Below are positions 32,981 to 35,404 of a DNA stretch of 64,000 nucleotides, in pieces. Each line of letters opens with the position of its first letter. The stretch's first letter is position 1. Both the position numbers and the translations under genes were made by a program. The DNA lies in the NCBI RefSeq assembly GCF_002563675.1, contig NZ_PDJC01000001.1, forward strand, positions 2,046,001 to 2,110,000, read 5' to 3'. The notes under the pieces are model-generated. The model saw only the letters and a list, made by a program, of their open reading frames with translations, had not been told where the DNA came from and made no database searches. The stretch is from Propionicimonas paludicola. Lineage in GTDB: Bacteria > Actinomycetota > Actinomycetes > Propionibacteriales > Propionibacteriaceae.

Positions 32981-33070
32981 CGCAGCGAGAGGCTTCCGCC
33001 CGGAGGCCCGGGCAGCTCCGACCGCCGATCTCGTCGTTATCGAGGCCGTAGGCGGACCGCCTTCACGTTC

Positions 33071-33180
33071 GAGCGCCAATGTTGTCGTTATCTGGTCGCT
33101 AGAGGGCCCGCATTTCGACAACATCGGCGCTCGCATCGGATCGTCGCCGCAGCAGGCCGCTGATAACGACAACATTGGCG
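33071..33180. repeat. Overlapping inverted repeats before the GH13 gene
   Basis: CGCCAATGTTGTCGTTATC (33074-33092) is mirrored exactly at 33162-33180. A third arm, CGACAACATCGGCGCTC (33116-33132), pairs with GAGCGCCAATGTTGTCG (33071-33087) at 16 of 17 positions. The left arm can therefore pair with either of two partners, giving two exclusive hairpins. GTCGTTATC occurs once more at about 33032. The 273-bp gap between pmt and the GH13 gene holds no gene. Confidence 0.75.
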
Positions 33181-33253
33181 GTGACATCAGGCTCGAACGA
33201 GGAGCAGGCACCGGTAGCGGCTGCGTGGGGGCCGGCGCAGCTACATTGGTCCG

Positions 33254-35404
33254 GTGATTCGCGCCGAAGGCCCCAGCGCCCGTCCCCGCGTGCAGCGCCG
33301 TCCACCCGTCTTCACCGAGCCGGACGGGCCCGCGCAGGCCGACAATCCGGCCTACCTGGCGTGGCTAGAGGGCCAGTCGATGCTGCGTGACGCGACCGAC
33401 TTGTCCCGGCAGTTGGCCGGCCATCCGGCCTTGTGGACGAAGTCCTTCGCGCGACCGGACCCGCGCCGCGCCGTCCAGCGGGCCGGCGTCTGGTTCACCG
33501 CCTACCCGCTGTCCCAGATCACCGCCGACGGGCAGAGCTTCCTCGGCGCTCTGGGCGATCCCGCGCTGTGGGAGGTCTTCGCACGGATCGGGATCCAGGC
33601 CGTCCACACCGGACCGCTGAAGAGCTCCGGCGGGATCCGGGGCTGGGCGCACACCCCCAGCATCGACGGCTCGTTCGACCGGATCAGCATGAGCATCGAC
33701 CCGGCCTTCGGCACCGATGCCGAGTTCCGCGACCTGTGCGCCACAGCCGCAACCAACGGGGCCACCGTGATCGACGACATCATCCCCGGCCACACCGGCA
33801 AGGGGGCCGACTTCCGGCTGGCCGAGCAGGGCTACGCCGACTACCCGGGCATCTACCACCTGATCGAACTCCCCCGCGAAACCTGGAGTTGGCTGCCGCC
33901 GCTGGCCGAGGGAGCCGACTCGGTGAACCTCGATCCGGATACCGAGGCCCGGCTGGCCGAGGCCGGCTACCTGATCGGCGCCCTGCAGCGGGTGATCTTC
34001 TTCGAGCCCGGGATCAAGGACACCAACTGGTCGGTGACCGGCGAGGTGATGGGCGTGGACGGCGTCGTCCGCCGCTGGGCCTATCTGCACTACTTCAAGG
34101 ACGGCCAGCCGAGCATCAACTGGCTCGACCCCAGCCTGGCCGGCCCTCGGCTGATTCTGGGCGATGCCGTGCACTCGCTGCTCGAACTCGGCTCCGGCGG
34201 CCTGCGGCTGGACGCCAACGGCTTCCTGGGCCTGGAGCCCACCGAGGACGGCCCGGCCTGGTCGGAGGGCCACCCGTTGTCCCGGGCGGCGAACCAGTTG
34301 ATCGGCTCCATGGTCCGCAAACTGGGCGGCTTCACCTTCCAGGAACTGAACCTGGGCATCGACGACATCCGGGCGACCGGGGCGGACGGTCCGGATCTGT
34401 CCTACGACTTCGTGACCCGACCGGCCTACCAACTGGCCTTGTGCACCGGCGATACCGAGTTCCTTCGACTCACCCTGGCCGAGGCGCGGGCGATCGGTAT
34501 CGACCAGGCGTCCCTGGTGCACGCGCTGCAGAACCACGACGAGCTGACCTACGAACTGGTCCACTTCGAGCACAACCGGGCCGACGATCACTACCGACTG
34601 TCCGGCCAGGAGTTCCGAGGACGGGAGTTGGCCGAACACGTCCGCCAGCAGCTGCGCGATGTCCTGCTCGGGCCCGGCATCGGCTACAACGCCCGCTTCG
34701 TCGAGAACGGCATCGCCTGCACCACGGCTTCGGTGATCGCGGCGGGGCTCGGCATCACCGATCTGGACGCGATCGGCCCGTCTCAGGCGGAGCTGATCCG
34801 CCGGGCGCACCTGCTGGCCTGCCGGTTCAACGCCTGGCAGCCGGGCGTCTTCGCGCTGTCCGGCTGGGATCTGGTCGGCGCACTGCCGCTGGCCTCGGCC
34901 CAAGTGGACGACCTGGTCGCCGACGGCGACACCCGCTGGCTGGAGCGCGGCGCCTACGACCTGCTCGGCACCAACCCGGACGCCACCGCGTCCAGCTCCG
35001 GGCTGCCCCGGGCGCGGAGCCTCTACGGCCCGCTGCCGGACCAGCTGGCCGACCCGGCCTCCTTCGCCTCGCAGCTGGCCGGAATCCTGGACGTCCGACG
35101 GGAGTCCGGCGTAGCCACCGGCGAGTTGGTGGACGTCCCCGAGCCGCCGCACCCGGGTCTACTCGTCCTGCTCAGCCGGACCGAGCACGGCACCATGCTG
35201 GCCGCCGTCCTCAACTTCACCGCTGGCCCGCAGAGCCTGGACCTGACCGAGCTTCCCGGGTTCCCACCCGGCCACTACAGCTCCCTGTCCGGCGGCGACG
35301 ACTCCTACTTCGTCCCGGCGCTGCCCACCGAGAGCTCCCCCGAGCCGGCCACGACCGTTGTGAACCTCGATCCGTTCGGTGGCGTCCTGCTGCGCCGCGC
35401 CTGA
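33254..35404 (+). CDS. TreS-like GH13 glycosidase/glucosyltransferase
   Basis: 716 residues with an alpha-amylase barrel. Region II reads [14 protein letters not shown] (nucleophile about Asp320), region III FQELNLG (acid/base about Glu364) and region [13 protein letters not shown] (Asp429). NHDELT.E is typical of trehalose synthase, which interconverts maltose and trehalose. Region I is [15 protein letters not shown]: the usual Asn of D...NH is Gly. The C-terminal about 90 residues form a beta domain (FGGVLLRR end). The GTG start follows TACATT by 6 nt. No maltokinase or glgE gene lies nearby. The GH13 call is firm; the substrate is inferred. Confidence 0.8.

Follow-up and report, generated by a model that had tools for sequence, protein, structure and literature searches.

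The locus

The window, a stretch of 64,000 nucleotides of Propionicimonas paludicola (contig NZ_PDJC01000001.1, positions 2,046,001 to 2,110,000), carries between a POMT and a GH13 gene a palindromic array of 164 bp (33020–33183), one of seven in this genome (G000). It is composed of four sites of 22 bp, the inner ends of which lie 51, 19 and 51 bp apart:

33020–33041, minus strand: site 1 (outer), GATAACGACGAGATCGGCGGTC read on the minus strand
33042–33070: spacer between sites 1 and 2, 29 bp, constant in length, unconserved in sequence
33071–33092, minus strand: site 2 (inner), the first arm of the initial annotation
33093–33110: centre between sites 2 and 3, 18 bp here, 17 or 18 bp in the 62 copies measured
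33111–33132, plus strand: site 3 (inner), including the previously described arm 33116–33132
33133–33161: spacer between sites 3 and 4, 29 bp, constant in length, unconserved in sequence
33162–33183, plus strand: site 4 (outer), including the previously described arm 33162–33180
33242–33247, plus strand: TACATT, −10-like, just 5′ of the GTG of the GH13 gene and outside the array (assigned by eye)

The initial annotation had described a three-arm inverted repeat cluster; the repeats are real, but the sites number four rather than three. The proposed pairing of the first arm with 33162–33180 was borne out, since 33074–33092 and 33162–33180 are 100% complementary over 19 bp, and the further motif copy noted at about 33032 is site 1 of the array (repeat copy at 33019–33041). 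A second pair, 33070–33100 with 33103–33133, is 77% complementary. The pattern of two sites spaced by 51 bp occurs twice in the window, once on each strand, and in none of 100 shuffles.

A gene-specific role at the GH13 gene was rejected. The sole relative in which both flanks, POMT and GH13, were found side by side is the nearest species (G008), and in its POMT–GH13 gap the window array is absent, which leaves a link to the GH13 gene unsupported: the orthologous gene is there without an upstream array. The G008 gap has the TACATT motif despite lacking the array, and this motif is likely the leaderless promoter of the GH13-like gene (window 33242–33256), independent of the array.

A dispersed family of arrays with a fixed frame

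In G000 the 14-mer CGACAACATNGGCG has 15 exact matches genome-wide, compared with 0 for a backwards control, and the 19-mer with at most three mismatches has 27 matches against one for the control, all but one of them within the seven arrays. One exact 14-mer, at G000:1730546, sits by eye in an apparent NADH-dehydrogenase coding sequence and was judged a chance match. The first 19-mers of the seven arrays start at 271869, 277901, 413552, 1853714, 2008374, 2079023 (window 33023) and 2999530, and the 19-mer offsets are identical throughout (0, 51, 88, 139).

A sequence model built from these seven copies was searched against 30 genomes of the genus and found full-length arrays in five further genomes. 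From the 58 stretches fetched, 63 arrays in six genomes were kept, with the weak R1 hits L105 and L131 excluded; L118 was also excluded from the geometry count, leaving 62, of which 57 have inner-end distances of exactly 51, 18 or 19, and 51 bp. The sites are common to the copies and the spacers diverge; within each site the inner part is near-constant (ATAACNNC) and the outer part varies between species, and two genomes (G109 and G050) each carry several array types at once. In the wider family a covariance model with nested pairs detected arrays in 27 of 198 genomes and 4 of 29 genera, most of the genomes surveyed being draft MAGs. An order-wide scan with model R2 gave matches in the array's own family only (6/196 genomes), and a pattern scan of named genomes returned 11 loci, all complete arrays in Actinomycetota MAGs, several of them labelled Propionibacteriaceae and three belonging to G050. 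Searching the family with the single 19-mer yielded mostly background.

Probable sites for a DNA reader

The initial annotation allowed for an attenuator or a small RNA on account of its alternative hairpins. Indeed, a reading of the array as an RNA attenuator, riboswitch or small RNA could draw on the strong predicted fold of 33019–33184 (z = −6.3) and on the covariation of arm pairs across array types. However, the fold value is not diagnostic of RNA, since any palindromic array would score in this way. In the genomes with a single array type (G000, G110 and G103) the arms are as alike within an array as between arrays, which indicates that the constraint is a trans-acting reader and not base pairing inside the array; intra-array arms are likewise no more complementary than inter-array arms, so that the covariation reflects shared site types. 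For the multi-type genomes G109 and G050 arm likeness is 0.71–0.79 within arrays versus 0.52–0.58 between them. Moreover, sites 1 and 2 are alike although pairing would not need that, copies occur on both strands of unrelated genes, and no Rfam family matches at threshold, the one match reaching 22.5 bits against a threshold of 67. The attenuator or hairpin candidate was rejected on the arm comparison together with the Rfam result, and RNA function of any of the three kinds appears very improbable. The other role proposed at the outset, that of a DNA operator array, holds in so far as the sites behave as protein sites at fixed spacing, but not as an operator specific to GH13.

The probable partner nuclease

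When the reading frames around the arrays were clustered, one protein family proved to adjoin arrays in 11 genomes. Its member in the window's genome is:

G000:2998569–2999519: nuclease gene, 317 aa, with its own array 4 bp past the stop codon

DUF559 of Pfam scores above cut-off in 5/5 proteins, AbiEi domains and REase_MTES_1575 match weakly, and the AbiEi models of PADLOC match with a best E of 7e-11 for the G000 protein. No NCBIfam family reached cut-off in the four proteins scanned, and a search of solved structures by sequence gave nothing significant. In an AlphaFold2 model made from an alignment of 28 members (pLDDT 94.2; L192, L197, L204, L209 and L216 were left out of alignment A3), residues ~1–213 are AbiEi-like (6y8q, Foldseek E 4.3e-6, Z 9.6, 178 aligned), and residues 214–317 resemble the homing endonuclease I-Bth0305I (3r3p, Z 9.9) and Vsr (1cw0, Z 8.1). 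Residues E217, E221, D252, E262, D264 and K268 are invariant in 28/28 proteins. The predicted structure suggests that the partner is probably a DNA-cutting enzyme in which an AbiEi-type DNA-binding part is joined to a nuclease domain of the homing-endonuclease/Vsr type. Viral carriage was rejected as an explanation for the arrays, with 0 hits for the three-module array pattern in IMG/VR and no tblastn match of the nuclease to phage or plasmid records at 1e-5.

Pairing of gene and array

The close subfamily of the nuclease, fragments included, occurs in 29 of the 198 genomes and in the same four genera as the arrays; beyond it, full-length relatives drop from ~400 to 174 bits. Gene and array are found together in 25 genomes, the array only in 2, the gene only in 4 and neither in 167 (Fisher 2e-25). 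The two array-only genomes are 84% and 89% complete, and in two of the gene-only genomes (G105 and G112) the gene is adjoined by an array whose type scores weakly with model R2. Within the genus, gene and arrays are both missing from several relatives whose genomes are nearly complete.

The association extends to immediate adjacency. It was measured with a scan that knew the geometry and not the sequence, the 51-bp frame used on the genes having been derived from the dispersed arrays. An array adjoins the nuclease gene in 31 of 33 genus loci, 3′ of it in 30 and 5′ in one (L189). The de novo scan 3′ of the stop accounts for 26 of the 33 (score at least 74; offset −33 to +165 from the stop), and model R2 adds L184, L186, L197 and L209 on the 3′ side as well as L189 on the 5′ side; L182 and L214 gave no significant array in either scan. 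The split gene of G100 (L196) has no array, and counting it makes the ratio 31/34, in which L190 and L204, from two genomes and with nearly the same array, are both included. In other genera 8 of 11 loci have a gene-adjacent array (score at least 73), with no significant array in the scans at L268, L272 and L274, and among distant homologues in the same family the figure is 0/14. Shuffled sequences reached a maximum of 70 among 580, and one of 151 other gene 3′ ends was positive; with a score of 100, this single control probably represents a further array. At L208 (G110) the nuclease gene is flanked on either side by an array of its own type. G000 has a third nuclease gene (L216, G000:681351–682303), which is apparently split into two frames and has kept a four-site array (score 92).

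Nearly every nuclease gene has its own site sequence, and the dispersed arrays follow these types. The arrays of the three nuclease genes of G050 match the three dispersed types of that genome, and for two of the four dispersed types of G109 a matching gene is present. Of 57 dispersed arrays in total, 42 find their best match in a gene-array of the same genome (mean 6.0 and maximum 36 in 10,000 permutations). The deviations comprise 9 of 20 dispersed arrays of G110, for which the G000 gene-array is a slightly better match than that of G110 itself, 5 of 10 in the incomplete genome G109, for which no matching gene was found, and one of six in G050, which ties with a G109 gene.

Across 27 gene-array pairs, sites tend to be the more alike the more similar the winged helices (residues 1–50) are (Mantel r = 0.485, p = 0.0005), in part through shared ancestry; the partial correlation is 0.448 given the nuclease domain, and that of the nuclease domain with the site is 0.031 given the AbiEi part. 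Sister proteins in the tree (L185/L211, L186/L202 and L203/L205) have, by eye, similar sites. Taken as genomic evidence, the pairing of gene and array is well supported. In three species the nuclease genes lie beside OsmC (L188, L191 and L201) and their sites are unrelated; in four species, nuclease-array units (L183, L186, L202 and L203) recur around a THAP4/DUF4184/Dtd neighbourhood and have mostly different sites. Such recurrent neighbourhoods reflect either descent from a shared ancestor with rapidly changing specificity or hotspots of insertion.

One might suppose that the array is the operator of the nuclease gene only, by autoregulation of the AbiEi type, and that the dispersed copies are decayed relics of lost nuclease genes. 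Antitoxins of the AbiEi family bind 23-bp repeats in their own promoters (PMC7319586), which would favour this explanation. However, at 30 of 31 loci the array follows the stop codon and does not lie in a promoter, and nuclease remnants within 1.5 kb are present at none of the 58 dispersed arrays, nuclease sequence being found at the 5 gene-adjacent arrays only. Autoregulation with relics is thus an improbable account of the family.

Placement, copying and constraint

The array copies occupy diverse intergenic places with varied neighbour genes. Around the 63 arrays gene orientation is convergent in 21 cases, codirectional in 31, divergent in 9 and unknown in 2, figures that are approximate as they come from a home-made codon-score gene finder. 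The initial annotation had regarded scattered intergenic copies as the mark of a REP family; many such copies do exist, but they belong to a nuclease-linked four-site array and not to an ordinary REP family.

Several copies are related to one another over their whole length. The G000 arrays at 271869 and 277901 (A271/B277) are 83% identical over 163 bp, with homologous spacers and non-homologous flanks, and the same holds for L076/L088, L084/L086 and L080/L083/L085, in which the spacers are common and the flanks unrelated. Homologous spacers in unrelated flanks indicate that whole arrays were copied to new places. Among 62 copies, most of them old, there is no target-site duplication above background and there are no conserved terminal bases; nor is a clean empty site found at the POMT–GH13 gap of G008, which holds ~150 bp of unrelated sequence.

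Copying of this sort could also be the work of a non-autonomous transposon (MITE) with two transposase sites per end (IR/DR), mobilized by some DDE transposase, with the nuclease gene as a frequent passenger or hitch-hiker. The two sites in each half, their inverted orientation and the duplicates that end near the outer sites and sit in unrelated flanks would fit such an element. Tentatively, given that most copies are old, the candidate was set aside on the missing target-site duplications; conserved terminal bases are missing too. A constant centre of 17/18 bp would be unexpected in deletion derivatives, a matching array of its own accompanies each nuclease gene, and no transposase gene with a half-element around it turned up incidentally, so that we rate a MITE as improbable.

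At six orthologous positions (G000/G008 and G109/G050) the sites are 75% identical (397/528) and the spacers 55% (252/456; p = 5e-11), the sites being the more conserved in 6/6 pairs. This difference suggests that resident copies are under selection and, as far as sequence comparison reaches, argues for a role of these copies beyond passive spread. In the orthologous copies of G008 the outer site module is GGAGCT/GGCGCC, compared with GGCGGT in G000, a change as expected if the reader changed. Some array copies decay, and G008 also has a decayed array part (L108:150–215) ~1.9 kb from an intact array.

Conservation in place is, however, what a host-domesticated array would show as well. The AbiEi-nuclease would then be a chromosomal regulator, a roadblock or terminator, or a nucleoid anchor, and arrays would be maintained at gene 3′ ends for the benefit of the host, for example as insulation of convergent genes, and not for spread. 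Besides the conservation of sites over spacers, the orientation counts given above and the retention of all four sites at strict spacing speak for domestication. Against it stand the diversity of neighbour genes, the absence of the window array in G008, the nearly complete genus relatives that do without gene and arrays, the copying of whole arrays into unrelated contexts, and the PD-(D/E)XK core invariant in 28/28 proteins, which a roadblock would not need. Domestication by the host is therefore a minority reading, unlikely on balance but to be kept in view.

A candidate enzyme-plus-repeat system

Our favoured reading, which we consider probable, is that 33020–33183 is a dispersed copy of the binding array for a sequence-specific nuclease in a REPIN-RAYT-like two-component system. 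It builds on geometry, co-occurrence, adjacency, type matching, co-divergence of winged helix and site, array duplication and the conservation of sites over spacers, all of them documented in the genomes compared. The AbiEi-like part would bind each 22-bp site, such that four nuclease molecules would sit on one array with two-fold symmetry. The constant unit would be the gene with its 3′ array, arrays of the same type also being scattered in intergenic DNA, and enzyme specificity and site sequence would evolve together. The nuclease domain may cut at or near the array, so that the enzyme, or the repair of its cuts, would duplicate and spread arrays; alternatively it may stay parked until triggered. 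The arrays would be retained for the sake of the nuclease. We prefer the REPIN-like reading on the grounds that arrays are duplicated as a whole and move independently of the gene, no remnant of which lies near the 58 dispersed arrays.

The system shares the logic of REPIN-RAYT. In REPIN-RAYT (PMC3116915), an extragenic population of palindromic repeats goes together with a dedicated, repeat-flanked enzyme gene, the repeats are species-specific, and several enzyme/repeat classes per genome are possible. An enzyme gene flanked by its repeat, with dispersed copies, is likewise found here (31/33 loci; six genomes), a likeness of logic only, as the enzyme is another one: an AbiEi winged helix-turn-helix with an EDxHD/Vsr-type nuclease as opposed to the Y1 HUH RAYT. 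Furthermore, the arrays have four 22-bp sites at fixed distances without a hairpin constraint, unlike REPINs. PF01797 (Y1_Tnp) occurs in G000 at 2707373, far from every array, and was not found in the array-bearing genomes G110, G050, G107 and G109 (the last 89% complete); a RAYT-driven REPIN was rejected because Y1_Tnp is missing in several array-bearing genomes.

AbiE provides the closest parallel for the DNA-binding part. In S. agalactiae, AbiEi binds a pair of inverted repeats of 23 bp, and the promoter of Rv2827c of M. tuberculosis has four repeats, all of which are bound (PMC7319586). The likeness lies in the AbiEi fold of the DNA-binding part (6y8q, Z 9.6) and in inverted sites of 22/23 bp, two or four in number. 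However, the array described here stands at the 3′ end of a gene and is dispersed genome-wide, whereas the AbiE operator is that of one promoter; in addition, a nuclease is fused here to the AbiEi-like part. No AbiEii nucleotidyltransferase domain was found (E ≤ 1e-5) in 20 of the 23 neighbour reading frames listed for 12 loci, and one ABC ATPase among the neighbour frames matched PF13304, the title of which mentions AbiEii. Lacking RAYT and hairpin on the one side and an AbiEii partner on the other, the array family is filed under neither REPIN-RAYT nor AbiE.

The nuclease domain is linked to I-Bth0305I (3r3p) and Vsr by the fold of residues 214–317 and the invariant acids, on which the EDxHD assignment rests. 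Homing enzymes generally cleave the empty allele, whereas here cognate sites are intact beside the gene and elsewhere.

In the literature searched, no paper was found that combines an AbiEi-type nuclease with a dispersed four-site array, and the enzyme-plus-repeat system is apparently undescribed. Whether it constitutes a class of two-component element of its own we regard as an evenly balanced question: an AbiEi-type nuclease with a 3′ array of 2+2 sites would seed and maintain a genome-wide population of arrays, and enzyme and site would co-diversify fast enough that genes with the same neighbours have unrelated sites. If so, this would be a second, independent invention of the strategy of dedicated enzyme and dispersed repeat known from REPIN-RAYT, here assembled out of a DNA reader of the antitoxin type and a nuclease of the homing type. 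The ~30 naturally occurring enzyme/site pairs, which differ in specificity but share one constant frame, offer a data set for the evolution of winged-helix recognition, and AbiEi-DUF559 proteins of unknown function gain a testable role. For annotation the warning is that an array of this kind near a promoter should not be taken for a gene-specific regulator.

Finally, the first two arrays of G000 (L009:5867–6030 and L009:11899–12062) enclose ~6 kb that seem to be missing in G008 (L109), where a single array lies between homologues of the genes outside this two-array segment. Arrays may thus act as recombination points.
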